This document shows positions 7,001-32,578 of a stretch of 33,467 bases of DNA, piece by piece (the stretch's first letter is position 1; each line of letters opens with the position of its first letter). The stretch is from positions 2,256-35,722 of IMG/VR virus record IMGVR_UViG_3300030060_006720; one strand, written 5' to 3'. Below the pieces are notes generated by a model that worked only from the letters and a program-made list of their open reading frames with translations, made no database searches and was not told the DNA's origin. The position numbers and the translations under genes were made by a program. The DNA is from a virus.

Positions 7001-10000
7001 TAGTTGTATCTACAAAGCTAACACCAGTAACTATAGTGTTAGTAGCAACGCTAGCTCCAGCAACTGTAACATCAAGTGTTCCGTTGTTAAAAGCCGAAGC
7101 TGAAATAGCAAAGTTACTATTAGGAGATATAGTAATTTGCGTGCTACCAGGAAAATTTGTAATTTGACTTGCTGTTGGAGTAGTGCTCCAAGCTTGCCCA
7201 GGGCCAGCTGGAACTACATTACAGCTAAAAGAAAACTGTGTTCCAGGTAAAGTACCTGTAGTTAAAATAGCGTTGTCTGATAAAACATCAATACCTTGTA
7301 CAGATAATGAAGATAAATCTAAGCTAGCAGAGGCATTACTTTTTATATAGTTGTGCCACTTACCTTCTTTTTCTATAAATTCATTTACTTCTCCAGACTC
7401 TTTATCAGTAACAATACTTTCTACATACCAGCCTGTTTTTGCAGTATCATTATAAAACTCGTTATCATTATATGTAACACCTCCACTAACAACATCTGTA
7501 AAAGCGTCAACTTTTGATTGAGTACCTTCGTAAGAAACAGCTTTGTAGTTTTTAACTACATTTGGAGATTCATTAAAAATATCAGTAAGCGTAGCTTCGT
7601 ACTGTGTTCCATAAAAATTACAATGCGTAGTAGTCAACTCTTCAACATGATGAAGATACATTAAACCGTTTTTAAAAGTATAATAGTTGTTACTTAATGC
7701 TACGCTAGATTCTGGAATATAAGATTTAAAACTAGTCCAACCTTTAACGTTTTCTTTAAAACCTAAAGTATAAACATTTTTATTAACCTCAGGAGAAGTT
7801 ACTTCATGTAAAGTTATTATATAAGCATTTTTCTTAGGATCATATCCACCAACTATAGATTGAGAATATCTTAGCTGATCATTAAACCAATCATTCATGC
7901 CCGCTTCCGAAATAGGCGTTATTCCATCTCTTGAAAGTCTTAACACAGATCCTTTAGCTTGATCAACGAAATATATTCTATATTCTTCTTCAGCAAACGA
8001 CTCAGCATTTTGACAACCATAATTTCCAATAAAAGGAATAATACCACCTAAAACTTTATTAGAGGCTATAAAAGTACTTTGACCTTGTATGTCGTAAGCT
8101 GCATCTTTTTTAGCTAATATTTTTAAAACTTTATTTTCACAAAGAGCTATTAAATCGCTATTTCTAGCGTGAAGCTTAGTAATACTTCCGTATTCGTAAT
8201 TTAAAAGCTTTACTATGCTACCTGTAGGATCAGCAACAATAAACTCGTTAAATCCTCCGCCAAAAGTTTTACTATATTCTTGAGAAAATATTATTTGATT
8301 ACTTTGAACTACTTCTCTATAGTTTCCATCGTCAGGTATAGTAGCTTTCCAGCCACTTTGTTTTCCACCATCATAAGTATATAAGACATCTTCATTAAAC
8401 ACGTCTAATATTCTATCTGATTCTACACCGTTTGCAAAACTAATACAGTTGTAAAAAGGAAGAGTTGTAGTAAAAGTTCTACTATAAAATTCACTTCTAC
8501 AAGAATATGGCTTTATAGCTATTACGTTGCTACCATTATACGTAGAGTATACTACTTCAACTTGAACTATAGCTCCAGTCTCAGCGTCTAGCAAGTTTAA
8601 TTTACTACCAGCTAAGTTAGCTGTTGCGTTTAAGAAAATATTATTATAAACAACATTACCTGGAATAACATTACCATTTTGATCAACAGCATCTAATATG
8701 CCAAAGTTATTAGAAGAAAAATCATTTTGTCCAGGTATGTCAAATTCTATAAAAGCTAAACCAGCACCTTCATCTGAAGAGTTTGGATCAATATTTAAAA
8801 CGTGATTAGATCCAAAAGTTTTCGCGCCTTGCACGCTTTTTACTCTAATATTGTTTGTTCTTAATTTTCTGTTAATATCATGTGCGATATCGGTAGAAAA
8901 AGCTATCATACTTTCAGCTGGAACTTGTAATATAAAATCGCTATGTATATAATCTGCAATAGATTTTTCATCTAGCTTGATAGGATAAGCGCTACCAACT
9001 TCGTAAAATAAATCTTGATCAATATTTCTTTTCTTTTCTATTTCAAAAACAGCAGACATAACAGCGCCTTTTTCCGACTGAGATCTCATACCTGGAGAAG
9101 CAAACGTTCCAGTTTGATCAATACCAATAAACTGATCAAAAGCATCAGTAGCTTTTATTCTAACAAAAAATCTACCTAGCGCATCATCTACAGTACAACC
9201 ATAAACAATTTGTCCAGAAGGAGTTACTAAATTAGCCCCTTGTTGAGCGTTGTCTAATTCATTAATTATTTCTAAAACTTTAAATCTTGCGTCAGTATCT
9301 ATTACAGCTCCATTTACATTAACTATTGTAGTATTACCTGATAAAGAAGTAGTACCTAAGTTAACAGGACCACCAACACCGTGTGCTTTTTTTAATACTA
9401 AATAGTCATCAACTTCTATTTTACTTGCTTCTGATGAGCTAAAAGCTAACAAAACATGAGCTGTTTCAGGCGCCACGCCAGGGCCAGGGTTATTAGGATC
9501 ATCAATATCTAAAGGAAAAGCTTTAAATAAAGGTATGTTATAATATTCTCCTGTTAACTCTTTTATATAAAACTTATAATAATCTGCCCAAGCTGGTGGA
9601 TTGTTTTTTATAGCAACAGCTAAGTTGTTAAATAAAGGCGCTTTATTTTTTGGCACTGTTACAGATGTGTTTTTATCGTATAAAACAGGTGTTTCTCTAC
9701 CATAATAGTCTCCATATACTATACCTATTTGATATTCTCTAAGACTTTTTACAGAAGGAAAAGCGCGAGCCGAACTTGTATATTGCGTAGGCGTGCTAGC
9801 TGTTGTAAAAGAAGCAGAAGGACTATTACTAGCCATTCTAACTTTATAATAGCTAGCTTTTATATTTCCAACTTCTGGGTGAACAAGGCTACTACTAGCA
9901 GTAAAACCTACAAACGCATTACTAGTGCCGGGAGTATTGTCAAAATCAAACAAAGTTATTATATCTGTTACCGCAGGAATATTTTCATTATTAATAGTAT

Positions 10001-13000
10001 AGTCATAAGTTATATTAACATGAAGCTTTTCGTTTTGAAGCAAACCAATATTACCAGTAAGAGTAGCAGCTTGGTTAGTTGGCATTGCATAGCTATTTGT
10101 TCCATTAGAAGCGCTGAAATCAACTAAACCAGTACTAACAGTGTTTTGTTGTACCGTTGTTTCATTACCGTTTACATCTGTTTTTATCAAAGACATAGTG
10201 TAAGAAACTTCTATAGTGTTAAATTTAGCTAAAATAAATTCCTTTTGATGAACAGTTGAATTAAGATTACCACCAGTTTGACCACCGGTAGGAGCACTGA
10301 TAGTAAGATGGTATCCAGTAGCTTCAAAATCGGGTGTTGCAGAAATATCATAGGAAACAGTAGCATCTTGATCCGCTGTATATCTAACTTTAACAACCAC
10401 ATTACCGCCATCTGAACCACCAGTGTTATTACCATCATGTAAATTAGCACCAGTATCAGGCTCAAAATAGTTTGGTAATACATCTTCAGTTATATTTCCC
10501 TCAGGATCAAAAATGTTATTATCTACCGCCGCAACACTTGGCACAACCCAAGCAAACTCTGTAGCACTTATTGCAGCAGTATATGGTGGATTATTGTCAG
10601 TATAGTTTACAGGAGAAGGACTAGTAAATAAAGTTTTGCTATGAGCAAATAGTTCAGCAGTAACAGTATGAGTATCGTCACCTTCACCCGTAAAGTTCAT
10701 TAAGTTAGCAACACCGCCGCTAGCAGTAGTTGCTACTAAAGTGGCAACAGTAGGATCTGCTTTATAGAATCCAAAATAATAAGTAGCGTCTTCGTAAGAT
10801 AGTGAGTTCATACCATTAAACACCATTGCTTGCGCTTCACTTAAAAAAGGACCTCTTTGACTACTAGATAAAACACCTACTCCAGTATCAGCATAAACTA
10901 CAGCTTGATTAGCTTGATACCAAACACCAGCCCCTGTTCCTAATAAATTAAAACTATTATGGTGAGACCAAGCTGTACTTTTTTGATTTCCCCACTTAGC
11001 ATTGTGAATCATTTCATTTCTTGACAGACTAGCTGTAGTTCCAGCAGAATTACCTTCATAGCTTTCTAGAAATTGTTTACCATAAGACACCACTGTATTA
11101 TCTGATATAAAATCAACATCATCAGCGCCTGCGTCTACTAAATCATAACCCTCTTTATAGTTTCCATATAAAATTCTAGAAGCTATAAATTCTTGAGCTT
11201 TAGCGCTTCTTGGCACATCATCATAAACTCTTACTAATTGATTTTCAGGTATTGTAGAGCCGAATGTTTCAGTATCAAAAACAACTTTTCCTGTAACAAG
11301 ATTATCACCAGGAGTAATAGCGTTCCACTCGTCAGATCCTCTTTGTATTTTTTTTACTTGATTTAAGTTTATAGATCCATGATTTTTAAATAATATATCT
11401 ATATATTCAACATCATCTGGCACTTCAGGCGTAACAAAGTTAGAAATAACTATGCTTTGCATGTTATTCTGCATGCCTCTGTTCTCTCCAGTTAAAGAGC
11501 TATATGAGTAAGTACCTGGAACAAAAACAGGTATTGAGTATGGAGAAATAGAAGAGTATTCTTTATTTTTATATCTATATCTAATAGCAAAAGAGACAAA
11601 CTCTCTTAGATACATTTGTTTTTTATTTGTTATTACTGATGCAGCAAAAAATTCAACATCAATAGAGGCCGTGCTAGGATTATTAAAATCATTAACAGAT
11701 AAATAGTTTGAGTCGTAAGAATCTATTTGTATAACAAACTGACCAAGTGTTAAACTAGGGTCTGTAGTACAATCTTGTAAAATTGATCCTTCCCATCCAG
11801 CGCCTGTTTCAATACCAATAAAACTTATAGAATCTCCAACTTGCCAGTTTACAAGCGGAAGATTTGCTTCTAAAACCATAGTGCTACCAAGCGGCCTAAG
11901 ATCTACTAAAGGAACAGAATTGCCATACTCTATCATGTTAAACTGACTAGCGTTAACTTGAGCAGCATTAGGATCAAACACATTAGTTTGAACAAAAGGA
12001 ACGTAAGTGTGAACCTGATTTGTAGCTAATTCTGTAAACGGTTGAGGATCTCTTTTAAATATAGTACCTTTTACAGTAGGTGCTTTTCTAGGACTTTTTC
12101 TTATAGTCGTTATGTGTTCTTCTCTAAAAAAATTAGGTCTACTACCCCACTTATAACGGTAAGTACTGTGATACTTAACAGTGGCAAAAGATAAATAATC
12201 ACCAGCTTGAGTTCCGCCGTAACCTGAAGAATCGCTATAAAAGTCTTTTATATGTATTCTTTTAGGCTCATTTCTACTATCTGTATAAAACAATATGTCA
12301 TCAACATAATTTATAGCAGTAATCATCGTGTCTTTTGGACTAGGACTCGATGGAGTTCCAGATACATTAGATTCAGACTCAGACGTGCCTGTGATAAAGT
12401 TTAATATTCTAGGAGCTGTAAATCTATAAACATATCCTTGATCTATTAAAGCTTGAGTCATTAACTGACCATTACTTGGTTTTGTTGTTATTATTTTAAC
12501 GTTAGCAGCGTTAGCACTTTCTATTATTTTTAAAACAACTACCTCATCACCAACAGCGTACGCATCAATACCGTTAGGCCCCATCAACTGAACTCGCATG
12601 CCTGGCCTTACTCCGCTGGGTGTTTTTCTTATTAAAGAAGTAGAATTATTTGGATTTGGATAAATTAAATTTACAGCTGTTAAGTTGTTACTACCAACAG
12701 CTTCAATAACACCTAAACTAGCTTGAACTCCAGGAGGTTCTATTCTTGATTCAAAAACATCAACTAATAAAGGATAAGTATTACCACCTTCTACATTATT
12801 AAAACTTACCCACTCTGTTATAGCATCCGACTTAATTCCTAGTTTTTGAACGTAGTCTATGTTATTTATTGTAAATGTATTTCCGTCTTCAAGATCGCTA
12901 GCTAAACTTATAAAGTTAAAAACTTTTTTATCTTTTTCAATAGCTATGGAGCCAACGGTAGTAGCATTAGAAGCTGAAGTATCACTCATAAAATTAGTAG

Positions 13001-13202
13001 CACCGCCTACAACGTTATAAGCAGCGTCTAAAACTGTAACTTTAGCATTACCTTTTAGACTCTGTACCGCTCCAGTATTAGAATCTTCAGATGTAGATAT
13101 TTCAATATTTAAAGCGTCTCTGTATTCACCATTAGGCACTAGACGCTCATCAAGGTCTTTATTCATTCGACCTTTTAAGTAATTGTGAATTAACTCAGCC
13201 AT
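4074..13202 (-). CDS. Giant muzzle/nozzle-like tail protein with Ig-like and BACON-like C-terminal modules
   Basis: This 3042-aa protein fills over a quarter of the window. It starts MAELIHNYLKGRMNKDLDER, followed by NGEYRDALNIE and a GAVQSLKGN segment. This N-terminal pattern (a short leader, then N-K-D-D, a proline loop, a Y-x-x-x-x-N segment and a G-N turn) is what I recall from tail stabilisation or muzzle proteins of crAss-like and marine podophages. Around residues 1640-1830 there are propeller-like blades (NSDLIALCENKVLKI, GGYDPKKNAYIITL, KGWTSFKSYIP). From about residue 1950 the style changes to Ser/Thr/Asn-rich beta modules; three end in VTQ-type strands (LTITQAPS about 2346, VTVTQEAAPS about 2485, VTVTQKGRP about 2690), as in BACON and Ig-like domains. 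The last 200 residues are Cys-rich. The N-terminal part probably forms the distal tail barrel and the C-terminal part a host- or glycan-binding extension. The tail function is fairly sure; the domain names need a profile search. Confidence 0.85.
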   Translation of the reverse strand: MAELIHNYLKGRMNKDLDERLVPNGEYRDALNIEISTSEDSNTGAVQSLKGNAKVTVLDAAYNVVGGATNFMSDTSASNATTVGSIAIEKDKKVFNFISLASDLEDGNTFTINNIDYVQKLGIKSDAITEWVSFNNVEGGNTYPLLVDVFESRIEPPGVQASLGVIEAVGSNNLTAVNLIYPNPNNSTSLIRKTPSGVRPGMRVQLMGPNGIDAYAVGDEVVVLKIIESANAANVKIITTKPSNGQLMTQALIDQGYVYRFTAPRILNFITGTSESESNVSGTPSSPSPKDTMITAINYVDDILFYTDSRNEPKRIHIKDFYSDSSGYGGTQAGDYLSFATVKYHSTYRYKWGSRPNFFREEHITTIRKSPRKAPTVKGTIFKRDPQPFTELATNQVHTYVPFVQTNVFDPNAAQVNASQFNMIEYGNSVPLVDLRPLGSTMVLEANLPLVNWQVGDSISFIGIETGAGWEGSILQDCTTDPSLTLGQFVIQIDSYDSNYLSVNDFNNPSTASIDVEFFAASVITNKKQMYLREFVSFAIRYRYKNKEYSSISPYSIPVFVPGTYSYSSLTGENRGMQNNMQSIVISNFVTPEVPDDVEYIDILFKNHGSINLNQVKKIQRGSDEWNAITPGDNLVTGKVVFDTETFGSTIPENQLVRVYDDVPRSAKAQEFIASRILYGNYKEGYDLVDAGADDVDFISDNTVVSYGKQFLESYEGNSAGTTASLSRNEMIHNAKWGNQKSTAWSHHNSFNLLGTGAGVWYQANQAVVYADTGVGVLSSSQRGPFLSEAQAMVFNGMNSLSYEDATYYFGFYKADPTVATLVATTASGGVANLMNFTGEGDDTHTVTAELFAHSKTLFTSPSPVNYTDNNPPYTAAISATEFAWVVPSVAAVDNNIFDPEGNITEDVLPNYFEPDTGANLHDGNNTGGSDGGNVVVKVRYTADQDATVSYDISATPDFEATGYHLTISAPTGGQTGGNLNSTVHQKEFILAKFNTIEVSYTMSLIKTDVNGNETTVQQNTVSTGLVDFSASNGTNSYAMPTNQAATLTGNIGLLQNEKLHVNITYDYTINNENIPAVTDIITLFDFDNTPGTSNAFVGFTASSSLVHPEVGNIKASYYKVRMASNSPSASFTTASTPTQYTSSARAFPSVKSLREYQIGIVYGDYYGRETPVLYDKNTSVTVPKNKAPLFNNLAVAIKNNPPAWADYYKFYIKELTGEYYNIPLFKAFPLDIDDPNNPGPGVAPETAHVLLAFSSSEASKIEVDDYLVLKKAHGVGGPVNLGTTSLSGNTTIVNVNGAVIDTDARFKVLEIINELDNAQQGANLVTPSGQIVYGCTVDDALGRFFVRIKATDAFDQFIGIDQTGTFASPGMRSQSEKGAVMSAVFEIEKKRNIDQDLFYEVGSAYPIKLDEKSIADYIHSDFILQVPAESMIAFSTDIAHDINRKLRTNNIRVKSVQGAKTFGSNHVLNIDPNSSDEGAGLAFIEFDIPGQNDFSSNNFGILDAVDQNGNVIPGNVVYNNIFLNATANLAGSKLNLLDAETGAIVQVEVVYSTYNGSNVIAIKPYSCRSEFYSRTFTTTLPFYNCISFANGVESDRILDVFNEDVLYTYDGGKQSGWKATIPDDGNYREVVQSNQIIFSQEYSKTFGGGFNEFIVADPTGSIVKLLNYEYGSITKLHARNSDLIALCENKVLKILAKKDAAYDIQGQSTFIASNKVLGGIIPFIGNYGCQNAESFAEEEYRIYFVDQAKGSVLRLSRDGITPISEAGMNDWFNDQLRYSQSIVGGYDPKKNAYIITLHEVTSPEVNKNVYTLGFKENVKGWTSFKSYIPESSVALSNNYYTFKNGLMYLHHVEELTTTHCNFYGTQYEATLTDIFNESPNVVKNYKAVSYEGTQSKVDAFTDVVSGGVTYNDNEFYNDTAKTGWYVESIVTDKESGEVNEFIEKEGKWHNYIKSNASASLDLSSLSVQGIDVLSDNAILTTGTLPGTQFSFSCNVVPAGPGQAWSTTPTASQITNFPGSTQITISPNSNFAISASAFNNGTLDVTVAGASVATNTIVTGVSFVDTTTPGLLSNQVIAVFDLTAAGAAALTGDVIITWTTGATATAPSVIAEHFIQFVGNFTGGGAESFTHTAHPWETGYSQTSASEILINSIPNNTATGNNFINITLTGNNFVYSPSLPPTVVFGNDIINDGELGNYNATVTVDPSGASATILIDYDPLVTNTPGTDINNVITITTNSATGVLEYGDYTPSFVTSNVASIGYQAGSYTKGVNTTSGPFTVQVTDFGSPGVIIANSASVTTNFDPNIASNNFITFDAIANNSTTLTNTATIVITSSNYPQLTDTLTITQAPSIAASLGVGVRFIPTPVGFFASYFPNLTAATYLMPHTSVFNDPSVFGELEIIYNDSSGAPPNIGTSNINFIDTGDGTSWISNHFTLTVLVHINTGNTLFRFMVDQNTASVQRSADIEVTHPTDPTVTQTVTVTQEAAPSTNSLILSFEQEDPNSSTTGVLATIGTDLEHNYLAFSNEIYANIDDFSAPSNFGGGTNGFYGTDFNNAAFNNINVTVTVPDPASVMFPVTNSYYANNSAPSFYSNDPNDIIPVQSNHWMTSSSFSSLYQPFTYIDANGTLQVTNAEYKLTYGTPAFNTWVAGDYDANDPYLCRIPIDRTAIVKGYHPFNNDTTSPNDTVTVTQKGRPVLFLEQTDIVNQTAALLTFNGIIQNSGVIIRSNCTGVPLTRVKYYNTQFDMENDLNYTLSTAAGFAWITNDPDIGGTGICNISPNQAYSCSASIQVSAPTTQQQYFARVEFAHPELYSSFADVDAAFGTSWTWMDTFPDVDHVNIVLDPMSPTLDFGLVSQLDLCHTPGTAPNVHTTPGTPIQSSFVGSFCTGSVPSCSLEFPAGSGLYYATNNTFEYNIECGSADVIYDVSSSSQHYLAIDCTYNGTGTHLVSVVNYFEDADDPTTATGPGSPPSWATHMSSSYLQANSQAPSGHAFRFQFDAQQLRNIHTTLQVDKKVVFKIEHSDVSGIFQYISIRLNFNQVI

Positions 13203-16222: not shown

Positions 16223-17725
16223 CTATTGTAACAACATAAAGTTGTTAGCACCTTGTGTAATCAAACATCTTTCAGACAGCATGTGAATCTGCATTGCATC
16301 TAAAGCAGTAGTTGCAGCTCCAACAGAACCAGTCACCCAAGACTTCATTCTACGATCGTCAGTTTGAGAAGCTCTATAACGCACGTGTAAGAACGGACGC
16401 TTAATGTTTCTACCTAACATTTGATCATAAACGTTTGAAGTACCAGCAGGAATAAATACTCCACGGATAGCAGCTGTTCCAGCAGTATCATTGATACCAC
16501 CTCTAGTAGCTTTATCGTTTAAGTAACGGAAGTCAGACTTATAGAAGTCATAAGATCCTCTACGGAATCCAGTGAATCCTAAATTAAGAGCCATATCTTC
16601 GTCGTTCTCAAATACTCCGTAAGAAGTACCACCAGCGCCGTAAGAGTTCATCAATGCTAACATGTCATCAATAACTAAGTTAGTTGATCTGTTTAAAAAC
16701 ATCATATACTCTTCGATAGCACCTTGACGGTCAAACTCTGCTAAGATACTGTCAAACTCTCCTAAAGCAGTACCAGCAAGAAGTAAGTCAGAAGACACGT
16801 TACCACGATCAGTAATCGCAGCAAATAATCCTTGAGTACCAGCTTGATCTCCAGCAGTAGGCCCTAAGAAGTTATCAACATCGTCAGTTCCAGGAACATT
16901 GAGTTCAGATTCTAACATAGCCATTTCTAAGTAGTCTCCAAAACGAGCTCTTGTATCAGACTCAGCTTTTAAGTACCACAAGTATCCAGAAGCACCACCT
17001 TCAGAAGCGATTTCAACCCAACCAATACGAGATGCATCTGATCCAGATACTTCGTAGTAATCTTTTAAGATAATTGGTTTGTTGTTAAAACTTCTAAAAG
17101 TAGGTTCGTTAGCTCCTCTTTGATCTGTAGCAACTGGAGCACCACCTAAACTATTGTAGCTTGTTCCTTTACCAAACTCAGATCCGTAAACTAAACAAGT
17201 AGTTGCACCAGCAGTTGTTGAAAGACCAGTACAGTCAGCAGCTCCGTAAGGTTCAACCTCAAAAGTTGCGTTTGTAGCGTGAGTTTCAGTAACTAAAGCT
17301 TTAATAACAGTATTGTTACTTGAAAGTAATACAGTGTCATTAACTCTAACACCGTGATCAGCAGGCGTAAAGCCATCACCAGCGATGTTTCCATCAATAT
17401 CAGATATTACCTCAACTAAACCACCGTTACCACCAGTTAAACCACCAGCTACAGTTACAGTTACTTTGTAAGATAAATGTAAACGGCTTTGCTCTGACCA
17501 AACAACTTGATCAGCAGTCATTGCCTCTTCAGCCCCAACTTGAGATAAAAAACCTGAAATAGTTCTCGGTCCGAAAACTTCAGCTTCTTTCTCCATTAAG
17601 TCAGGAACGTATTGTTGCGCCCAGCCTTCGTTAGCTGTAGACGCTAAATCCAAATAATTTGACTGTAGCGCTTGCTTCTGTGGAGCAGCTACGCTATTCA
17701 AATTAAGTCCATTAGTAATTGGCAT
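16223..17725 (-). CDS. Major capsid protein
   Basis: The 500-aa product has the length and place expected of a HK97-fold major capsid protein of crAss-like and related phages: portal, scaffold-like gene, then this gene. It begins MPITNGLNLNSVAAPQKQAL and has the long N-terminal segment EGWAQQYVPDLMEKEAEVFG, then a mixed alpha/beta body with a spine-helix-like region near residues 245-280 (SDTRARFGDYLEMAMLESEL) and an E-loop-like Gly-rich stretch near 90-105. The leader just before the ATG reads TTTAAATTTTAAAAAA, similar to the leaders of the 137- and 140-aa genes. The gene is closed by a strong terminator, fitting a highly expressed unit. No cleaved N-terminal prohead domain is obvious, in line with a separate scaffold gene. 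Confidence 0.85.
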   Translation of the reverse strand: MPITNGLNLNSVAAPQKQALQSNYLDLASTANEGWAQQYVPDLMEKEAEVFGPRTISGFLSQVGAEEAMTADQVVWSEQSRLHLSYKVTVTVAGGLTGGNGGLVEVISDIDGNIAGDGFTPADHGVRVNDTVLLSSNNTVIKALVTETHATNATFEVEPYGAADCTGLSTTAGATTCLVYGSEFGKGTSYNSLGGAPVATDQRGANEPTFRSFNNKPIILKDYYEVSGSDASRIGWVEIASEGGASGYLWYLKAESDTRARFGDYLEMAMLESELNVPGTDDVDNFLGPTAGDQAGTQGLFAAITDRGNVSSDLLLAGTALGEFDSILAEFDRQGAIEEYMMFLNRSTNLVIDDMLALMNSYGAGGTSYGVFENDEDMALNLGFTGFRRGSYDFYKSDFRYLNDKATRGGINDTAGTAAIRGVFIPAGTSNVYDQMLGRNIKRPFLHVRYRASQTDDRRMKSWVTGSVGAATTALDAMQIHMLSERCLITQGANNFMLLQ

Positions 17726-17751: not shown

Positions 17752-18936
17752 TTATTTCTTTTTTCTAATTTTAAACTTAAAATCTTTAGAGTCATCGCCT
17801 AAAACTCTTACTTTTATTCCACCAGCTTCAAACTCTTTATGATTCTGTCTTGGTGACATATCTACGTTTTTAGCTTTAGCAACACTATCTTTGATAGCAT
17901 CAGCTTTTCCTTGCTCATAAAAGTGTTGAGCTATAGCGTCAGCATTCATTGCTGTGTAAAGTGATTTATGATAACCTGCGGCGTCTTCCATCGTACCTTG
18001 TTCGTTCAAAAACCTTTTGATAAAGTTATTAATGTCGCCCTGCGCGTCTTTCACTTTGTCAGCATTTTTAACATTTACTCTGTATTTTTTGTCTCCAACA
18101 CTATATTCAAAACCTTTGAAATCGTTGTTAAAAACCTTATTGGTTCTTTGCATAAATACATCAGTAGCTTTTTTCTGACGTTGTTCAGTCTCTTTAGACT
18201 CTTTGTTGTATCGATTAAAGAAGTCCATTGCTTTCTGCTGTTCAGGAGTTAGCTTTGATCCCGCTTTAATCTCTTCATAATATTTAGACTTTTGCCCGTC
18301 TAAGTAGGATTTAGCCTCAGCAACTTGCTCTTTCAAGGCTATTTTCTTTTTTCTAATATCTTTTTCATCGTCAACCTCTTCATCATAGTTAAAGTTCTCT
18401 TCCATTAAAAACTGAACTTCATCTGCGTCTAGATGAGGTTTTGTTTGTTTGTAATATTCTCTTAGAGCAGTTTGATTATCCATCTCGCTAAAATCTTGAT
18501 TTAACCTAACATAATCTTGAATATCACCACCAGTTTCATTCATGAACTCAACTAGCTTTTGTATATTTTCAGGTAAAGGTTCTCCAGTCTCTTGAGCTTC
18601 AGCAATTGCTTCTTGTGCTTCTTCAGCCAGCTCGTTAGTTTGCTCTACAACTTCTTGCTCAACTACTTCTTCTATTGTTGGCTGTTCTTGTGCTTCAACT
18701 TGCGGTTGTACTTCTTCTTGTTCCTGTACGGGCTCGGAGTTTTCATCGCTTCCAACCACTCCCTCGTCGTTAACTTCAACTCTTGTAACTGTTGGTTCTT
18801 GCGGGTCATTACCTTCTGGTTTATCTAAGTTTACTTTTACTACGCTAGGATCTTCAGCTGTTTCAAACATACTTAAATCCTGCTCTTCTACTTGAGGTTG
18901 TTCTTGAACCTCTTCAATTTTTTCGTTTTCTTCCAT
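17752..18936 (-). CDS. Scaffold-like acidic protein, 394 aa
   Basis: The first 120 residues are extremely rich in Glu and Gln, and residues 110-275 continue as charged helix with coiled-coil character (KKKIALKEQVAEAKSYLDGQ). The last residues are basic (DSKDFKFKIRKKK), a usual place for a scaffold's capsid-binding tail. It lies between the portal and major capsid genes, exactly where phage scaffolding genes sit, 26 bases before the capsid start. No protease motif is seen, so it is probably a pure scaffold. Its function in prohead assembly is inferred from composition and order, which together are fairly specific. Confidence 0.78.
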   Translation of the reverse strand: MEENEKIEEVQEQPQVEEQDLSMFETAEDPSVVKVNLDKPEGNDPQEPTVTRVEVNDEGVVGSDENSEPVQEQEEVQPQVEAQEQPTIEEVVEQEVVEQTNELAEEAQEAIAEAQETGEPLPENIQKLVEFMNETGGDIQDYVRLNQDFSEMDNQTALREYYKQTKPHLDADEVQFLMEENFNYDEEVDDEKDIRKKKIALKEQVAEAKSYLDGQKSKYYEEIKAGSKLTPEQQKAMDFFNRYNKESKETEQRQKKATDVFMQRTNKVFNNDFKGFEYSVGDKKYRVNVKNADKVKDAQGDINNFIKRFLNEQGTMEDAAGYHKSLYTAMNADAIAQHFYEQGKADAIKDSVAKAKNVDMSPRQNHKEFEAGGIKVRVLGDDSKDFKFKIRKKK

Positions 18937-18963: not shown

Positions 18964-21408
18964 TTATTTAGGGTCAAAAGCCCCTAAACTAAATCCACTT
19001 CCAAGTATATCATTACCTGCAGATTCAAAGTTTTTAGGTGATGTACCTGTCTTTCTTTGCTCTATAAGCTCTGATTGTTGAGTGGCTTGTATTCTTGTTC
19101 TTTCGTCTTTACGATCTTCTTTTTCGTTTTCTTTAGATTTTTGTCCTTCTACCTCTGTATTTTTCAACATCATATTGTACTTAAACTCTTCTGCCATTAA
19201 AGCTTTTTTAGCTTCAACTTCTGCTTGCATACGTCGTAATTCTAATTTAGACTTTACATCTTGTAAAGTCATTTCATTTTGCATTTGAACTTGATTCTTT
19301 TGCATTTCAACTTGAGCAGCGGCTTGTTGCGCTTGTGAATTAGCGTTAGCTTGTGCAACCATGTTTTGTTGTTGCATCATTTGATCTCTTTCAAGCTTTT
19401 TCTTTCTTCTAATTTTTAAAAGTTTATTTGCTAGCTTGTAATTTTTTATTTCTCTAATATCTATAGCATCTTCAAGATCTATGTTTCCTGTAGCTAAAGA
19501 CTGTTGTATATTGTTTTCAAGCTTTGCTTGCTCTTCTTCGTCCGGAGCTAAATCAATAAATATACCAAAATCATATAAGTGAAGCTCTGACATTTCGTCT
19601 AATACAGCGACATTGTGAGATCCAATAGCTTGAACAAAAGCGTCAGCTGTTGGAGAATATTCTAATATGTCAGATATTCTAAGTGATAAAGCTTCTGCAG
19701 TTTCAGCTGTTAAAAATAAACCTGATTGTAATATATGTCTTGTAGCAGTATTACTGTTAGCTGCAGCCATTTTTTGAATACCAACTAGAGCGTTTTTATC
19801 AGGAGTACTACCATCTCTAGCTTCGTTTAATCCGGTTACGTCGCGGATCATTTGTAAATAATAGTTATAGTTTGATATTAAGGCGTTAATCTTACTACCA
19901 TTAGCATTGCTAGTTATAGGTTGAATAGGAACTTTTCCAGGATTAATATCTCCATCTTGAGTAAAAGATCTACCAATAACACTACCAGTTTGGAAATACA
20001 TATTTAAAGCTTCCTGTGGATTATAGTTTGTACCATTACCTAAATCTATTTCAGCCAAACCATCTGCGTCAAGATAAACACCGTCTGGTACCATGCGTGA
20101 CATAACTTGTTGTAACTTCAAATGTGTAAGTTGTATCATGTCAGCAAAGCCAGTAATACGTCTAACTAATGAATCTATTTTACCGTTGTATAATCTAGGA
20201 GCAACAATGCTATAATTCATTTTAACCTTAGTGTAATCGCTTTTAGGTCTAAGCATATTTTTTTGAAGCTCCCATTTTAATAGTTTATCTGTGCCAACTA
20301 TAAAAACACCTTCGTACACAACTTCTACAACTCGTTCTAATCTACCAAACTCTCCTTCCATATCAGGTGGAGGATTAAAACTATCATCTTTTTGAATTAC
20401 TTTATCAGCTCCAGAAGCTGTTTCTTTTATTTTATAAACATCGTTCATATATGTTTTATAGTTAAAGTATAAAACTTGAACAGTGTTATTATCGTGATCT
20501 TTTCTGCTATTGTACTTTTGGTGATTAGTTCTATTTTGAGTCATCACCTCTTCAATCTCTGATTGAGTTAAGTTGGGAAACTGTTTAACTAACTCGTTAA
20601 TAGGTATATGTTTTACTTCACCTACATAATACAAATCTTCAAAGTATGGAGACTCTGTAAAAGAGTAAACTAAATTAGCAGGATCAACATATTCAATAGT
20701 AACTCCAGTTGAGTTGTTAAATCCAGTTTTTACAGCGCCAATACCTAAAACTGTTAAATCATAAAAAAATCTTTTTTTAACTAACTCGTATTTATTACCT
20801 TCCATTAAAACAGCTAAAGCTTGCTCTTCTGCTATTTCTACAGCTTGCTTATATTCTAGTTGCATGTGAAGATCTAACTCCTCAGCTGTTTGTGGAAGAT
20901 CTATTTTTTTATTTCTTCTTAAATCTATGCCTAGCTCTTTTGTAACGAACTTGTTTACATCTTGATTTTCCATATCTGACAATATGTCTTCAAGATATTG
21001 AGTTCTTTTTTCTACACCAAAAGGATCTTGTGCATAAACATTTATATCATAAGTTCTTTCAGCTATACCATTAACTACTATATCTACAAACTTAGGTATA
21101 ATAGGAACTGGCTTCCAGTCTAAATTTAAATAAGACAAATCACCGTTAATAGATAATTCATCTTTATATTTCTGTATTGATTGCTCTCCTCGAGCATATA
21201 ATCTTAATCTATGAAACTCATGCTGATTATTTCCATATTTAGCATTAGTTCCTACCGCAACCCCTCCATTACTATTGCCACCACCATTAAACCATTCTTG
21301 TTGTATAGCTTTCGCTATTTTTAAACCATAGTCGTAGCTTATCTTTTCTAGATCACTTACAGCTTGGCTTGGAAAATAATTACTAATTACTCCTGCTGTG
21401 TAACTCAT
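18964..21408 (-). CDS. Portal protein
   Basis: An 814-aa protein whose ATG overlaps the terminase stop by 4 bases (ATGA). Terminase followed by portal is the standard order. The protein shows a portal-like mixed body: LYARGEQSIQKYKDELS near residue 70, KPVPIIPKFVDIVVNGIAER near 100, a long helical middle including YNYYLQMIRDVTGLNEARDG near residue 515 (the helix and M-R-x-x-T-G-x-N-x pattern common in crAss-like and T4-like portals), and a Gln/Met-rich coiled coil at about residues 670-780. The C-terminus ends SGFSLGAFDPK. About 800 aa fits crAss-like portals. The ring forms the DNA entry vertex and docks terminase and the ring proteins. Confidence 0.85.
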   Translation of the reverse strand: MSYTAGVISNYFPSQAVSDLEKISYDYGLKIAKAIQQEWFNGGGNSNGGVAVGTNAKYGNNQHEFHRLRLYARGEQSIQKYKDELSINGDLSYLNLDWKPVPIIPKFVDIVVNGIAERTYDINVYAQDPFGVEKRTQYLEDILSDMENQDVNKFVTKELGIDLRRNKKIDLPQTAEELDLHMQLEYKQAVEIAEEQALAVLMEGNKYELVKKRFFYDLTVLGIGAVKTGFNNSTGVTIEYVDPANLVYSFTESPYFEDLYYVGEVKHIPINELVKQFPNLTQSEIEEVMTQNRTNHQKYNSRKDHDNNTVQVLYFNYKTYMNDVYKIKETASGADKVIQKDDSFNPPPDMEGEFGRLERVVEVVYEGVFIVGTDKLLKWELQKNMLRPKSDYTKVKMNYSIVAPRLYNGKIDSLVRRITGFADMIQLTHLKLQQVMSRMVPDGVYLDADGLAEIDLGNGTNYNPQEALNMYFQTGSVIGRSFTQDGDINPGKVPIQPITSNANGSKINALISNYNYYLQMIRDVTGLNEARDGSTPDKNALVGIQKMAAANSNTATRHILQSGLFLTAETAEALSLRISDILEYSPTADAFVQAIGSHNVAVLDEMSELHLYDFGIFIDLAPDEEEQAKLENNIQQSLATGNIDLEDAIDIREIKNYKLANKLLKIRRKKKLERDQMMQQQNMVAQANANSQAQQAAAQVEMQKNQVQMQNEMTLQDVKSKLELRRMQAEVEAKKALMAEEFKYNMMLKNTEVEGQKSKENEKEDRKDERTRIQATQQSELIEQRKTGTSPKNFESAGNDILGSGFSLGAFDPK

Positions 21409-23621: not shown

Positions 23622-23896
23622 TTCGATCTGCCTTCCGCGAAGCCTTTAAATACTCTGTCTTTTTTTTCTTCAGATGTCTTTCCTTCCAAAATATTTTCTT
23701 CCTCTTGTATACGGTTGAGTATTTCAAATGCATCAAATATAGCTAACTTTTTAGTAGCTGCGGCATTTTTCAGTCTATCAGCAGATACATCATCTTCTGT
23801 ATTTGTGATAATCTGCTCTTGAGCAACTTTAATTAACTCATCAACTGCTTTTTGCCCAGCTTGGATTATACGTTTCTTCGTTTCCTTCACGCTCAT
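23618..23896 (-). CDS. Small protein in the small-terminase position, 92 aa
   Basis: A short helical, charged protein (MSVKETKKRIIQAGQKAVDE, then SADRLKNAAATKKLAIFDAF) that overlaps terL by 4 bases and whose start lies 56 bases inside the end of the preceding GroES-like gene. No later in-frame ATG removes that overlap. Small terminase subunits are often short helical proteins encoded just before TerL, so that is the leading guess, but no helix-turn-helix is clear and the length is on the low side. A packaging accessory or terminase chaperone is the alternative. Confidence 0.6.
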   Translation of the reverse strand: MSVKETKKRIIQAGQKAVDELIKVAQEQIITNTEDDVSADRLKNAAATKKLAIFDAFEILNRIQEEENILEGKTSEEKKDRVFKGFAEGRSK

Positions 23897-24428
23897 ATTT
23901 AATTGTAATAAATTTAGAATATACTCTATATAGCTTTTCTCCGTCTATGATAAATTCATATTTAGAAAAAGGTGTAAAGCTAACTAAATCACCTTCTTCA
24001 AAAGATCCATCAGTATATTTTATAATACCCATAGTTGGATCTTCTTTATCATTACTCCACTTGCCACTAAACTTTATTGGTTTAATAAAACAAAATCCAT
24101 CAACTGCTTTCCAATTATTTTGTTTATATAAAAATATTTGATCTTCAAATACTATATACTTATCTTCACTAAACCAACTTCTACTATTTTTTTCTTCACC
24201 ATATTGGTTGTACCATCTTCTAAACACGTTGTGATGAACTATTACTTCATTTCCTGGTTTGATTGATGTAGAACGTAACATAGGGCAACTACGCACAATA
24301 CCTTTACGATTAATATATTCATGGTTAGATACTTCAGAGTTTAGTATTAACTGCTTGTCACCAATTTTTTTTATATTGTTATATCTTTCACCAACTGGAG
24401 ATATTACAAAACTGTATGGACTTTTCAT
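23841..24428 (-). CDS. Tandem GroES-fold-like protein, 195 aa
   Basis: The protein reads as two successive GroES-like beta barrels. In repeat 1 (about 20-108), LILNSEVSNHEYINRKGIV resembles the mobile loop and first turn, SIKPGNEVIVHHNVF is the K-x-G-(N/D)-x-V strand, and DKYIVFEDQIFLY matches the closing strand before the end of co-chaperonins. In repeat 2 (about 110-180), DGFCFIKPI is the new first strand, MGIIKYTDGSFEEGDLVSF is the G-x-V and E-x-G-D-x-V region, and FIIDGEKLYRVYSKFITIKY closely follows the GroES end (D-G-x-x-y-x-V-x-x-x-d-I-x-a). It starts in a TAATG overlap with the 85-aa gene and is two genes before terL. It may help fold packaging or capsid proteins. The fold match is my reading, with no alignment score. 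Confidence 0.65.
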   Translation of the reverse strand: MKSPYSFVISPVGERYNNIKKIGDKQLILNSEVSNHEYINRKGIVRSCPMLRSTSIKPGNEVIVHHNVFRRWYNQYGEEKNSRSWFSEDKYIVFEDQIFLYKQNNWKAVDGFCFIKPIKFSGKWSNDKEDPTMGIIKYTDGSFEEGDLVSFTPFSKYEFIIDGEKLYRVYSKFITIKYEREGNEETYNPSWAKSS

Positions 24429-26491: not shown

Positions 26492-26914
26492 TTATTTTTC
26501 TTTTATTTGTTCGTTTTTCTTTGAGCTTCCGCCGAAGAAGAAGTCTATTATTGTATTTACCTTAGCACTCATAGCGCCAAATATTGTGGAGATAAAACTA
26601 ATTTCAAACTCTCCTAGTTCTATTGATTTTGTAACAAAGTAGTTGAACATTACAAATGTAATACCAAAGTATGCTACAGTAAATAACGTTGCTAATACTT
26701 TTTGTATAATAGCATCGTCTTTATACATATCTCTTGCAGACTTACGATCTTCTACTTCTTTAGCAAAAGCTTCACGCTCTGCATCTAATAATAGTTTTTT
26801 AAGAGCTAGCTTTGCTTCGTCTCTTTCTTTGTCAGTAGTAATTACTTTGTCGAGGATACCTTCTGCGTTATCTACGATCTTACCGAATAAACCTCCTACT
26901 AAATTATTTATCAT
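26492..26914 (-). CDS. Holin, 3TM/GTA-holin-like
   Basis: A 140-aa protein with a helical charged N-terminus (residues 25-65 rich in K, E and D) and two clear hydrophobic segments at about 70-94 (IQKVLATLFTVAYFGITFVM) and 103-127 (FEISFISTIFGAMSAKVN), ending IDFFFGGSSKKNEQIKEK. The R-x-x-A-R-D-M-Y-K-D-D stretch before the first segment and the F-F-F-G-G-S end match the pattern I recall for the GTA_holin_3TM type. It would form holes in the inner membrane at lysis. It overlaps the HExxH gene by 4 bases (26911-26914), so the two may be translated as a pair. No classical endolysin is visible here. Confidence 0.8.
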   Translation of the reverse strand: MINNLVGGLFGKIVDNAEGILDKVITTDKERDEAKLALKKLLLDAEREAFAKEVEDRKSARDMYKDDAIIQKVLATLFTVAYFGITFVMFNYFVTKSIELGEFEISFISTIFGAMSAKVNTIIDFFFGGSSKKNEQIKEK

Positions 26915-27318
26915 ATCTTATTATTTTCCCATGGAAGATCTCTACTTCCTTCTGGATATGCTTTGCCAGTGTGCGGATCTATGATTACCGCTTGACCAGC
27001 TATTTCAGTTCTAGGCCAAGTCATGCCTTCATAATAAACAGCATTATCGTCATAAGTCTCTTCACCAGTTTGCATTTTTGTTTTATGCTGCATTTCGTGA
27101 TTTAAAGTATAACTAAACATAGGATCGTTAATATCCATATCTTTACTAACAAATATAGAACCGTCCATGTTTGCTTCTGCTAATATACCATCACCTAGCT
27201 TTTTTCTATATATAGGTGTTCCAGGAACACTTATATCTGTAGATTTAAATTTAAACTTACTCTTAATGTCTCCACTTCGAGCTTGTAGCTTTTTTGCTTT
27301 ACCTAGTTTAAATCCCAT
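26911..27318 (-). CDS. Mini HExxH metallopeptidase-like protein, 135 aa
   Basis: The basic N-terminus (MGFKLGKAKKLQARSGDIKS) resembles the MAFKMK group, and the core holds TLNHEMQHKTKMQTGEE: His74, Glu75 and His78 form HExxH, with Glu86/Glu87 and Asp90/Asp91 as possible third ligands. The rest (AVYYEG, then VIIDPHTGKAYPEG, and W-E at the end) is short and beta-like. I recall similar tiny phage proteins with H-E-M-x-H and a PWE-type end, function unknown. It overlaps the holin by 4 bases and shares a TAATG joint with the winged-helix gene, so a lysis-linked or virion protease role is possible. Zinc binding is inferred, not shown. Confidence 0.7.
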   Translation of the reverse strand: MGFKLGKAKKLQARSGDIKSKFKFKSTDISVPGTPIYRKKLGDGILAEANMDGSIFVSKDMDINDPMFSYTLNHEMQHKTKMQTGEETYDDNAVYYEGMTWPRTEIAGQAVIIDPHTGKAYPEGSRDLPWENNKI

Positions 27319-28723: not shown

Positions 28724-28981
28724 TTAATCTACTAATACAATATCACGTGCTTTTATTACAAAATAAAATTTATCTTTGTATTCTATACCATGACCAGCGT
28801 GTTTATCATACCACACTACGTCTCCTTCTTTTAAAAACTCAACTAGGTTACCGTAAGAAACAACTTCTGCTTTATAATATCTAAGATCTTCATTAGTCTC
28901 TTCTGTCATTATTAATCCAGACTGTTTCTTCTCTGTTTCTTTTATTTTATTTATTATTACAAAATCATTTACCGCCTTCAT
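28724..28981 (-). CDS. groES: GroES co-chaperonin
   Basis: An 85-aa GroES, slightly shorter than the bacterial 95-97 aa. Starting MKAVNDFVIINKI, it has the mobile loop with ETEKKQSGLIMTEETNED (the G-x-I-M tip contacts GroEL), then KAEVVSYGN, LKEGDVVWYD (the K-x-G-D-x-V strand) and the closing FYFVIKARDIVLVD. A roof loop is present but short. It starts 17 bases inside the end of groEL, so it is translated right after it. In bacteria groES comes first; here the order is reversed. It would form the lid for the phage GroEL, but could also act on the host chaperonin, as T4 gp31 does. The paired GroEL makes the first more likely. Confidence 0.93.
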   Translation of the reverse strand: MKAVNDFVIINKIKETEKKQSGLIMTEETNEDLRYYKAEVVSYGNLVEFLKEGDVVWYDKHAGHGIEYKDKFYFVIKARDIVLVD

Positions 28982-30530
28982 CTAATCTCATGTTTGATAT
29001 TACACAATCTGCAGAAATAATAGTAGATACGACACTAACTGCATTTTTTAGCGCCGACTTGGTAACAAGTACGGGGTCTATAATACCAGCTTCAACCATG
29101 TTAACTGGTTTTCCAGTAATAACATCTAAACCACAACCATCTTCTAACTCAGTATTAAACTCAATACCAGCATTATCTAATATAGTGTTGTAAGGAGAGG
29201 TTATAGCTTTTAGCAATAACTCTTCACCGACATTGTCGGTCGAAATTTTTTGAGATGCATTAAGTAACGCTATACCACCGCCGGGAACAATGCCTTCTTT
29301 CAGTGCCGCTTTAGTTGCATATATAGCGTCCTCAACACGATCTTTCTTTTCTTTGAGCTCTACTTTTGATCCAGCACCTACGTTTATAATACCAACACAA
29401 CCAGATAACATAGCTAAACGATCTTCTAACTTCTTTTTGATAAAACCGTTTTTTTCTTCAGCTATACGTTTGTGCACGTCATTAATACGCTCTTCAGCAA
29501 GCTGATACATGTCTTCTATTGTTATTACTGTATTATTGTCATCTGTTTCAGCGTAATCAGCTTCACCAAGATCTTCTGGCGATATAGCATCTAAATCATC
29601 ACCAAGCTCTTCGTTGAATAGCTTAGCACCTGTTAATATAGCTAAATCTTCACACGTGTCTTTTTTAGTAGGACCAAAACCTGGCAGATCAATAATATTA
29701 ATTTTAATATTACCTTTTACTTTGTTCATCAGAAGCGCCGACTTTACTTGTTGTGATACTGGTGCTACTATAAGTAAAGATCGGTTTTGTTTTATTACAT
29801 ACTCAAGTACACTTTGAATTTTACGTATGTTTGGTATTTCAGACATACATATAAGAACTAAAGGATTATCTAGCTCTGATTTTTGCTTGTCTGTGTTTGT
29901 AACAAAATGAGGTGATGTTAAACCACAGTCAAACTGTATGCCATCCACAGTCTCTACATAAGTTTCTTCTGTATTAGAAGATTCCATAAGTACAACACCG
30001 TCTTTACCTACAGCTGTATAAGCTTCAGATATTATGCTACCAAGCTTTGAATCATTGTTACAAGATATACTAGCTACATGAGAAAGCATATCATTATCGA
30101 CTTCTATCTTTATTGAGTCTAAATAATCTAATACTTTATCAGTACCTGACTGTAAACCTTGTTTTAATTCTCTAATAGTAGCCACATCCATAGAATTATA
30201 GACATGTGTAAGCAAAGCTTCTGCCAGGACGGTTGCTGTAGTAGTACCGTCACCGGCTTGCTTTACAGTATTGTTTGCGGCTTCTTTAATAAGTGTTGCT
30301 CCAATATTCTCAACAGGATCAAATAACACTACAGATTGTGCTACTGTAACTCCGTCTTTTGTAATAACTGGTTTACCACGACTATCTTCGTAGATAACAC
30401 ACTTACCAGAAGCGCCTAAAGTTGATTTTACTGCTTGCGCTAACTTATTAACGCCAGCAATTACCTTATTTTTGGCATTATCGCCAAAATTGAGATCTTT
30501 TACGATCTCACTAGGAAGATTATATTCCAT
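28965..30530 (-). CDS. groEL: GroEL chaperonin
   Basis: A full-length 521-aa GroEL. The ATP site is intact: STLGASGK at 37-43, ITKDGV with Asp59, GDGTTTATVLA with Asp94, and KDRVEDAIYATKAALKEG with Asp401, the hydrolytic Asp; VPGGGIAL lies at 415-422. The apical domain is recognisable (SPHFVTNTDKQKSELDNPLV, then PGFGPTKK at 283-290). The residue matching E. coli Tyr203 is His208, next to Phe209. The C-terminus ends NMRLDEGGK, so the usual GGM tail is missing. It is encoded with groES on the same leftward message and probably folds phage virion proteins that the host chaperonin handles poorly. There is no sign of frameshift or loss of function. Confidence 0.97.
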   Translation of the reverse strand: MEYNLPSEIVKDLNFGDNAKNKVIAGVNKLAQAVKSTLGASGKCVIYEDSRGKPVITKDGVTVAQSVVLFDPVENIGATLIKEAANNTVKQAGDGTTTATVLAEALLTHVYNSMDVATIRELKQGLQSGTDKVLDYLDSIKIEVDNDMLSHVASISCNNDSKLGSIISEAYTAVGKDGVVLMESSNTEETYVETVDGIQFDCGLTSPHFVTNTDKQKSELDNPLVLICMSEIPNIRKIQSVLEYVIKQNRSLLIVAPVSQQVKSALLMNKVKGNIKINIIDLPGFGPTKKDTCEDLAILTGAKLFNEELGDDLDAISPEDLGEADYAETDDNNTVITIEDMYQLAEERINDVHKRIAEEKNGFIKKKLEDRLAMLSGCVGIINVGAGSKVELKEKKDRVEDAIYATKAALKEGIVPGGGIALLNASQKISTDNVGEELLLKAITSPYNTILDNAGIEFNTELEDGCGLDVITGKPVNMVEAGIIDPVLVTKSALKNAVSVVSTIISADCVISNMRLDEGGK

Positions 30531-30886: not shown

Positions 30887-31657
30887 TTATTTGCCTACGT
30901 TCTTTTTTCTACGAGTTGACGCAGTCTTTTTAGCTTGTGTAGGATTCATAGTTGCTTGGCTTATTTTCATAGCAGACTTTCTAGTATTAGTCTTAACTAT
31001 TTTTTTAGGTGACTCTTTCATCATCTTCATTGCAGCTTTCTCCAATTCCATTGCAGACTTTTTCATCATCATAGCTGATTTCTTCATTTGGTTTGGTGAA
31101 GGAGCTTGATTTTGTAACATCATCAAAGCTTGGTTATAACCCATATCGCCAGGATTATACTTTTGATGTAATTCACCTTGATTGTTATAAACCGCGATAC
31201 CCTCTCCAGTAGCAGCTTTTTTAGCTTTAGCTTTCTTAGGAGACTTCATATTGTTTGGAGAAGTACCACCTAATACAGTACCAACGCTTGCTGGAGTATA
31301 ATTTCTACGACCTCCTTCCGTTACAGGATTACCATCAACATCTACAGCCATAGGTTTTCTCATTTTAGCTCTACCTTGAGCGCCTGACATACCAGTTGAT
31401 GATCCTAATTTTTTAGGAGACTTCATTCCCATTGGTGATTCACCACCAGCGTCGATGTATGTTTGTTTTGCTGCGTTATATCCAGCGTCACCAGGAGCGT
31501 ATTTAGATACTTTACCACCTTTACCTGTTACAGTAATACCTGCTTTTGATGCAGACATTTTTGTATCATCGCTTGTTTTTACAGTGGTAGCTTTAAAAGC
31601 CCCCGGAAAATTTTTTTTCATTGGGCCTTCTTTGCCCGCTTTCATTTTAAATGCCAT
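30887..31657 (-). CDS. MAFKMK-group basic repeat protein, 256 aa
   Basis: Starts MAFKMKAGKEGPMKKNFPGA and is strongly Lys/Met/Ser/Ala-rich. Residues 40-85 and 153-190 are an internal duplication: each runs G-I-x-V through K-Y-x-P-G-D-x-G-Y-N-x-A to an S-P motif. S-P-K-K or similar motifs recur at 80, 139, 187 and 216. Residues 191-218 are three heptads (MKKSAMM, MKKSAME, LEKAAMK), an amphipathic Met-rich helix, and the end is basic (STRRKKNVGK). The composition suggests a DNA- or RNA-contacting protein, perhaps packed in the capsid like histone-like internal proteins. It opens with the same hexapeptide as two neighbours. No known family is recognised. Confidence 0.75.
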   Translation of the reverse strand: MAFKMKAGKEGPMKKNFPGAFKATTVKTSDDTKMSASKAGITVTGKGGKVSKYAPGDAGYNAAKQTYIDAGGESPMGMKSPKKLGSSTGMSGAQGRAKMRKPMAVDVDGNPVTEGGRRNYTPASVGTVLGGTSPNNMKSPKKAKAKKAATGEGIAVYNNQGELHQKYNPGDMGYNQALMMLQNQAPSPNQMKKSAMMMKKSAMELEKAAMKMMKESPKKIVKTNTRKSAMKISQATMNPTQAKKTASTRRKKNVGK

Positions 31658-31677
31658 TTTATAATTGTTTTAACTAG

Positions 31678-32283
31678 TTACTTTTTTTTTATACCCAACA
31701 TCTTTAATGCTGAACTTTGTTTTGCTTGATCTTTTTTTCTTTCGTCTTGATTCATAGAAGATATTTTAGATTCTTCTACTTGTTTAAGACTAGCTTTTAA
31801 GTCTTTTTCTTCTTTTTTAGTAAAAGGACCAGGAACCTCACTTTTTTTTCTACCTACATAAGGATTACCTTCATCTTCAAAAGGCTTATTACCACCTGGA
31901 GGTGTAGGTCTTAAAGCAGAGTGCTGAGGACCAGAAGGAATACTTTGAGGTTTTACAGGACTAATACTACTAGGAGAACTAGGTGTAGGTCTTACTGCTG
32001 TGTTACCGCTAGGACCGCCTAAAGTTTGAGGCTTTACGTTTGAAATCGTAGATGAGCTTGTTGATCCTGTAGAGCTTGGTGGTGTTGGATCTATACCAGT
32101 TTGAGAAGCTGTAGATGTTGGAGGACCTGAAGGAGTAGGATAAGTTATAATCTTATTAGGAGATTTATTGCCAAGCATTTCAAAATCTACTTTTGACAAT
32201 TTTCCATCTTTATTCATATCAATCTTTGATTGATTACCTACTAGCTCTTTAAAGCCAGAGAACTTTTTCATTTTAAAAGCCAT
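31678..32283 (-). CDS. MAFKMK-group protein with EF-hand and Pro-rich linker, 201 aa
   Basis: Starts MAFKMKKFSGFKELVGNQSK and continues with DMNKDGKLSKVDF at residues 22-34, a good EF-hand loop: Asp22, Asn24, Asp26, Gly27, Leu29 and acidic Asp33. Residues 41-150 are a Pro/Ser/Thr/Gly-rich flexible linker with a direct repeat: V-K-P-Q-(T/S) near 83 and 110, each followed by a (V/L)-R-P-T-P unit. The C-terminus is helical and Lys/Glu-rich (FTKKEEKDLKASLKQVEESK, ending LKMLGIKKK). No known family is recognised. Calcium binding by one EF-hand is possible, and the linker suggests a stretched or scaffolding role. It shares its first six residues with its neighbours. Confidence 0.75.
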   Translation of the reverse strand: MAFKMKKFSGFKELVGNQSKIDMNKDGKLSKVDFEMLGNKSPNKIITYPTPSGPPTSTASQTGIDPTPPSSTGSTSSSTISNVKPQTLGGPSGNTAVRPTPSSPSSISPVKPQSIPSGPQHSALRPTPPGGNKPFEDEGNPYVGRKKSEVPGPFTKKEEKDLKASLKQVEESKISSMNQDERKKDQAKQSSALKMLGIKKK

Positions 32284-32320
32284 AATATATATTTATCTAT
32301 GTTATAGTTATTACAGGTCG

Positions 32321-32578
32321 CTATTCGTTTTTAGTTCCGATGCCATCATTACCACGGTTAGCTTTAACAGATTTAAACTTACCGTCTTTGTGATCGTAGT
32401 CTTTACCACTAATATTAATACCTTTTTTCTTAGCAGATCTACGAAGAACTTGGTTTTCTGCTTTTTTAGATTTACGATCAGCTGTTTTAGCATAAGCAAG
32501 ATCTCTAGCTTCTTTAGCAGCTCTAGCTCCTACAGATAAGTCTTGTCGTTTTAAAGGTGATTTCATTTTGAACGCCAT
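32321..32578 (-). CDS. MAFKMK-group small basic protein, 85 aa
   Basis: Starts MAFKMKSPLKRQDLSVGARA, then a helical Ala/Lys/Arg-rich stretch and GINISGKDYDHKDGKFKSV with R-G-N-D-G near the end. The D-x-D-H-x-D-G-K pattern with the following N-R-G-N faintly recalls the core of small HNH-type domains, but the His pair is incomplete, so I do not call it a nuclease. High basicity suggests nucleic-acid binding. It is the first gene of the leftward block and carries S-P-x-K once (SPLK). The start is well placed 3' of the control region. Confidence 0.72.
   Translation of the reverse strand: MAFKMKSPLKRQDLSVGARAAKEARDLAYAKTADRKSKKAENQVLRRSAKKKGINISGKDYDHKDGKFKSVKANRGNDGIGTKNE

Follow-up and report, generated by a model that had tools for sequence, protein, structure and literature searches.

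One of the features of a widespread clade of uncultured marine podovirus-like phages is a tag of ~13 residues (core M-A-F-K-M/L, hereafter the head) that is carried at the N-terminus of considerably more than 100 small proteins with no other relationship to one another, and that probably serves as a capsid-targeting signal bringing these proteins into the phage particle. Because the tag is shared, and because the scaffold-like protein of the same phages terminates in a related motif, loading into the capsid is its most likely role, as for the capsid-targeting sequence (CTS) of phage T4. The head was recognised in a window of 33,467 nucleotides (the whole stretch of DNA analysed, part of a 35.7 kb IMG/VR record), in which the following features are considered:

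16223-17725, minus strand: major capsid protein (MCP), phrog_13704, marker of the tag-carrying clade.
17752-18936, minus strand: scaffold-like acidic protein between the portal and MCP genes, ending in DFKFKIRKKK.
18964-21408, minus strand: portal protein, by family match to phrog_6547.
26911-27318, minus strand: HExxH putative metallopeptidase with head MGFKLG, from a family in which proteins selected by their bodies retain the head.
28724-30530, minus strand: phage GroES (28724-28981) and GroEL (28965-30530), adjoining tagged genes.
30887-31657, minus strand: 256-aa tagged protein, starting MAFKMKAGKEGPMKKNFPGAFK (head codons 31640-31657), with Met/Lys repeats and three SPKK motifs.
31678-32283, minus strand: 201-aa tagged protein, starting MAFKMKKFSGFK (head codons 32266-32283), with a Pro-rich linker and a weak EF-hand/dockerin-like loop.
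32321-32578, minus strand: 85-aa basic tagged protein, starting MAFKMKSPLKR (head codons 32561-32578), body phrog_6437.

The original prediction held that three adjacent genes (85, 201 and 256 aa) start with the same hexapeptide MAFKMK, that the HExxH protein opens with the related MGFKLG, and that all three tagged proteins carry S-P-x-K-type motifs, all of which is borne out by reading the minus-strand ORFs (SPLK in the 85-aa protein, SPNK and SPVK in the 201-aa protein, SPKK three times in the 256-aa protein). Conservation at the protein level is likewise upheld by the synonymous codons, which differ among the three heads (Ala/Phe codons GCG/TTC, GCT/TTT and GCA/TTT in the 85-, 201- and 256-aa proteins, respectively). 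The shared head is real, but the hexapeptide is not its unit, which is better described as a core M-[A/G]-F-K-[M/L/I] within a module of ~12-13 residues. Regarding the bodies, the 201-aa protein gives sub-threshold matches to Dockerin_1 (E=0.006) and to EF-hand_5 (E=0.025). The 256-aa protein has relatives that share its long head in loci L006, L039, L053, L095, L097 and L107, and 0 cultured homologues in the phage collection searched.

How widespread is such a head? The M-A-F-K-M-K starts that were expected in other phage genomes do recur: DNA encoding MAFKMK with any codons is present in at least 120 IMG/VR stretches, compared with 94 single matches across the entire collection for the permuted MAMKFK (same codons and degeneracy). 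A hexapeptide can still be matched by chance, so the query was lengthened by GF, and MAFKMKGF is still found in at least 120 stretches, as opposed to 0 matches in IMG/VR for the permuted MAMKFKGF. Among the MAFKMK matches listed, most are genuine ORF starts, and a single contig often has two to four of them. In loci picked only by the HExxH body, ORFs start with MAFK in 95 cases (mostly the HExxH proteins themselves), with MAKF in 15, with MFAK in three and with other orders in none. The 497 tagged ORFs of the gathered loci (heads of the form M[AGPS]FK[MLIV]) fall into ~146 body families when bodies are compared by BLAST from residue 9 on, a count from far from saturated sampling, in which low-complexity bodies are perhaps over-split and a small number of singletons probably reflect chance starts. 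A typical tagged ORF is ~120 aa long and basic (median net charge of the bodies about +11 per 100 aa), and SP-x-K motifs are approximately fivefold more frequent in tagged proteins than at the shuffled level. A fixed bipartite signal combining an F-K-hydrophobic-K motif (FK-phi-K) with SP-x-KK was considered (29 of 146, against ~16 with shuffled bodies) and is not claimed, because the excess is only modest. For nearly all tagged proteins no relatives are known, and a Pfam scan of 106 of them gave almost no matches apart from DUF5872 and DUF6321; one tagged 302-aa protein (L381:4724-5629), with 0 Pfam matches, contains a GCSTYAC stretch resembling a cysteine-peptidase active site. The shared head is therefore confirmed as a real, widespread, protein-level feature. 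In the literature searched, no description of the MAFKMK head was found, nor any prior description of a shared head in flavophages, and within those limits the feature has not been described earlier.

The HExxH protein is the commonest tagged body, and its family allows the head to be followed in proteins picked by body, among which all 78 readable starts are MAFK[L/M/I]. With an HMM that left out the first 20 residues, and in loci selected without regard to heads, 75 of the 76 readable proteins carry the head, and the sole headless one still has FKLG near residues 11-14. F3 and K4 persist although the identity of the bodies falls to ~20-60%. The expectation that the head is kept while bodies vary consequently holds for this family; it is only partly borne out by the homologues of the 85-aa protein, from which the hexapeptide is often absent, an outcome that had been named beforehand as counting against the tag. 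The HExxH motif and a distal Glu are conserved within the family, and the structural model predicts an ordered body at good confidence, preceded by ~28 residues of low pLDDT. The best Foldseek matches, among them selecase, abylysin and IrrE/PprI, are weak (E of 0.6 or more in every case), and homologues of the body in the phage collection are remote and cover it only in part. The seven matches in GTDB genomes allow no firm host call, since they are mostly MAG contigs of mixed labels. The HExxH protein of the window also has a second FKFK at residues 22-25, a tetrapeptide identical to that of the scaffold tail.

Depending on the query, records were picked by the MAFKMK start, by the HExxH body or by a second head described below, and the three sets lead to the same capsid. 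The MCP family phrog_13704 is present in 35 of the 40 long records picked by MAFKMK (Fisher p ~1e-15 vs permuted), in 23/25 of those picked by the HExxH body (p ~3e-14) and in 14/15 of those picked by the second head (p ~3e-11), compared with 0/33 records picked by the permuted peptide. Tag sites all lie on the MCP strand in 35/35 records with comparable strands, all tags are co-stranded in 126/126 multi-tag loci, and 136 of 217 neighbouring same-strand tagged pairs are less than 300 nt apart. Conversely, a variant of the head occurs in 9/10 long MCP-relative contigs that were not picked for heads; exact MAFKMK is found in only 4/50 MCP-relative records, a low figure that is due to variation of the head and to most of these records being fragments that surround the capsid genes. 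The window phage has the gene order TerL-portal-scaffold-MCP of Elemovirus/Pervagoviridae-like marine podoviruses, with related MCP, portal and TerL, and its MCP is 39-43% identical, over 93-100% of the query, to those of Panino, ctfjg026 and Elemovirus. The nearest cultured phages are the podoviruses Maribacter phage Panino, Elemovirus and Callevirus (Pervagoviridae). In the same window, a 3042-aa virion-type ORF (4074-13202, minus strand) occupies the place of phi40:1 gp097, a protein detected by MS/MS.

Homologues of the 85-aa body vary at their starts (MAFKMKSPLKR in the window, MAYVQSNNPFKK in L317, other basic starts, or the bare body), and those that are devoid of the hexapeptide either begin with a second shared head or another basic one, or have no head. 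The second head, MAY-x-Q-x-NNPFKK, occurs in L120, L051, L095, L309, L317 and other loci, on DUF5872-like, DUF6321-like and other bodies; its form MAY.Q.NNPFK is present in 34 IMG/VR stretches, against 0 for the permuted form, and 12 of the 15 long records that contain it also have MAFKMK starts. Heads are exchanged exactly at one junction between L508 (MAFKMKGFTPFTK followed by SAEPRRTIGPGKNF) and L120 (MAYIQSNNPFKK followed by SAEPRRTIGPGKNF), and a swap at one junction is also seen between L492 (MAFKMKGWSPYTK followed by ADPRRTIGPGKNF) and L051 (MAYTQSNNPFKK followed by ADPRRTIGRGKNF). These swaps point to at least two interchangeable address modules, of ~12-13 residues each, and several body families are also found with neither head. 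A third basic start, RRxRxHGKxRR, precedes the 85-aa body in L006, L051 and L089, and is possibly another type of head; in L051 and L089 it is followed by a CSPLKK/CPMKK stretch.

Another line of evidence comes from the protein encoded between the portal and the MCP, labelled scaffold-like in view of its gene order, its acidity (net charge -36) and its model, mostly helical with disordered ends and a tail of low pLDDT. Of the 86 non-redundant scaffold relatives, 74 have an FK-phi-K-like motif within their last 16 residues and 16, all in one subclade, have one within their first 22 (e.g., MSEVKQEGEFKIKKRKTPKK); these counts are not independent, as the proteins are homologous. The Elemovirus scaffold-like protein begins with MFKMK. 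In other ORFs of at least 250 aa from the same genomes, the motif is C-terminal in 2/507 and N-terminal in 3/507, the latter three all being tagged proteins, and internal FK-phi-K shows no excess over its shuffled frequency in the cargo bodies. Judging from these sequences, cargo heads and scaffold ends may dock on the same partner, and the tag possibly copies the scaffold's own binding motif; the match could also reflect convergence of two Lys-rich ends, FK-phi-K being only four residues long.

Virion data come from a cultured relative, and are taken here from the GenBank notes on phi40:1. The 85-aa body is homologous to gp080 of phi38:1/phi40:1 (52% over 42 aa), and phi40:1 gp080 is annotated as a structural protein from experimental MS/MS of virions; the scaffold homologue gp092 of the same phage was also detected in virions by MS/MS. 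The 85-aa body class is thus virion cargo in phi40:1. However, the likely start of phi40:1 gp080 is MAPPKKKG, without the MAFKMK head, which shows that the head is not essential for entry of the 85-aa body, and the proteomics accordingly supports the body class as virion cargo rather than the tag as the cause.

The proposal of an encapsidation or localisation tag on diverse cargo is favoured by these data (~146 bodies, one capsid family, the scaffold motif and the MS/MS of gp080), and would operate as follows. A flexible N-terminal module of ~12-13 residues (M-A-F-K-[M/L]-[K/N/G]..., in many cases preceding SPFKK, SPLKK or GFxK) would be recognised during prohead assembly, and many small, mostly basic proteins would thereby be enclosed in the phage head and might be delivered into the next host. 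Since the scaffold ends, and in one subclade also begins, with the same F-K-hydrophobic-K kind of motif, the head most likely binds the scaffold's partner (for example, the inside of the capsid or of the portal), or becomes part of the scaffold core. Heads and bodies recombine freely, so that the cargo turns over fast under a constant address. In this scheme, attachment to the capsid or scaffold core, tag-driven packaging and ejection into the host are all inferred steps.

As a targeting signal, the head works like the T4 CTS, of which the first 10 residues suffice to bring unrelated basic or foreign proteins into the prohead core (PMC9026906), and whose internal protein cargo varies between relatives (PMC9026906, PMC3012670). 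As in IPI, IPII, IPIII and Alt, a short N-terminal segment precedes unrelated, mostly basic and quickly varying bodies. The head is nevertheless outside the homologous family of T4, because it is linked to phrog_13704 capsids of Elemovirus/Pervagoviridae-like podoviruses; it differs from the CTS in its sequence, in the unrelated podovirus-like clade that carries it, in a far larger number of body families, in the existence of a second interchangeable head and of a similar motif at the scaffold termini, and in the absence, from the positional profile, of a conserved prohead cleavage site after the head. Ejection proteins of SPN3US and other phiKZ-like phages also have N-terminal stretches, some common to diverged proteins, for which prohead targeting was inferred, but these are mostly propeptides of at least 100 residues that are cleaved (PMC5694885), compared with ~13 residues here. 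In P22, the C-terminal coat-binding region of the scaffold can likewise carry cargo inside (PMC9962691), by means of an engineered fusion and a folded helix-turn-helix, whereas a natural short linear motif would be involved here. Finally, crAss001, a Bacteroidota phage with a podovirus-like head, contains protein cargo (gp45, gp46 and RNA polymerase subunits), which is large and placed by its own domains, with no common short head described in the portions of the report used here (PMC10172136).

Could the head instead be an address for another destination? The main rival, which is unlikely, holds that it marks clients of the GroEL/GroES encoded by the phage itself, or directs proteins to the nucleoid, the membrane or a replication compartment. 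GroEL is encoded in 29 of the 40 tagged records and adjoins tagged genes in the window, and the basic bodies would suit DNA binding. On the other hand, G038 (52 kb, six heads) and G024 are without GroEL, though they may be fragments, Elemovirus and ctfjg026 encode GroEL with 0 MAFK-tagged proteins in the stretches read, small and probably disordered bodies are unlikely chaperonin clients, and the motif recurs on the scaffold and not on other large ORFs. A 195-aa ORF near TerL (window 23841-24428, minus strand) resembles, by position and reading, the 'co-chaperonin GroES' of phi38:1 and Elemovirus, and would be a second GroES-like gene.

That the head is a functionless, recombination-friendly 5' end, or a trace of shared ancestry spread by shuffling, would fit the swaps at one junction, and mosaicism of the T4 type is common in phages. 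It is very unlikely, as neutral hitch-hiking would neither keep heads and F3/K4 on bodies at such low identity nor place the motif on the scaffold, and as synonymous head codons differ within one genome. A propeptide that a prohead protease cuts off, with targeting secondary or absent and the HExxH protein as the possible protease, would agree with this protein being the commonest tagged body and with the cleavage of targeting propeptides in T4 and SPN3US (PMC5694885); this is improbable to a similar degree, given that the profile of heads reveals no conserved cleavage site, only a drop in conservation past residue 7, and that the fold matches to minigluzincins and IrrE are only weak, even if processing and targeting could both hold. 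Selection on the mRNA for an A/T-rich translation start, which could yield the same residues and agrees with a mild start-codon effect (GCA for Ala2 in 65% of heads vs 30% in bodies), is nearly excluded by the permuted peptides, which use the same codons and are missing or no commoner than chance, and by the occurrence of all four Ala codons in heads, and would leave the capsid linkage and the exact head swaps unexplained.

Capsid targeting by the head, as preferred here, opens onto a wider proposition, tentative and rated at somewhat less than an even chance: an abundant marine clade may load an open-ended, quickly exchanged cargo into its phage heads through a scaffold-mimicking F-K-hydrophobic-K motif, the tag revealing more than 100 families of injected effectors, including a metallopeptidase, nearly all of them without known relatives. 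If true, a six-residue query would pick out the proteins packaged in the heads of one of the commonest uncultured marine phage groups, and dozens of dark genes per group would become testable injected proteins. It would also represent a second, independently evolved capsid-targeting system besides that of T4, one whose link to the scaffold is visible, and might provide a genetic handle to package foreign proteins into flavophage heads.
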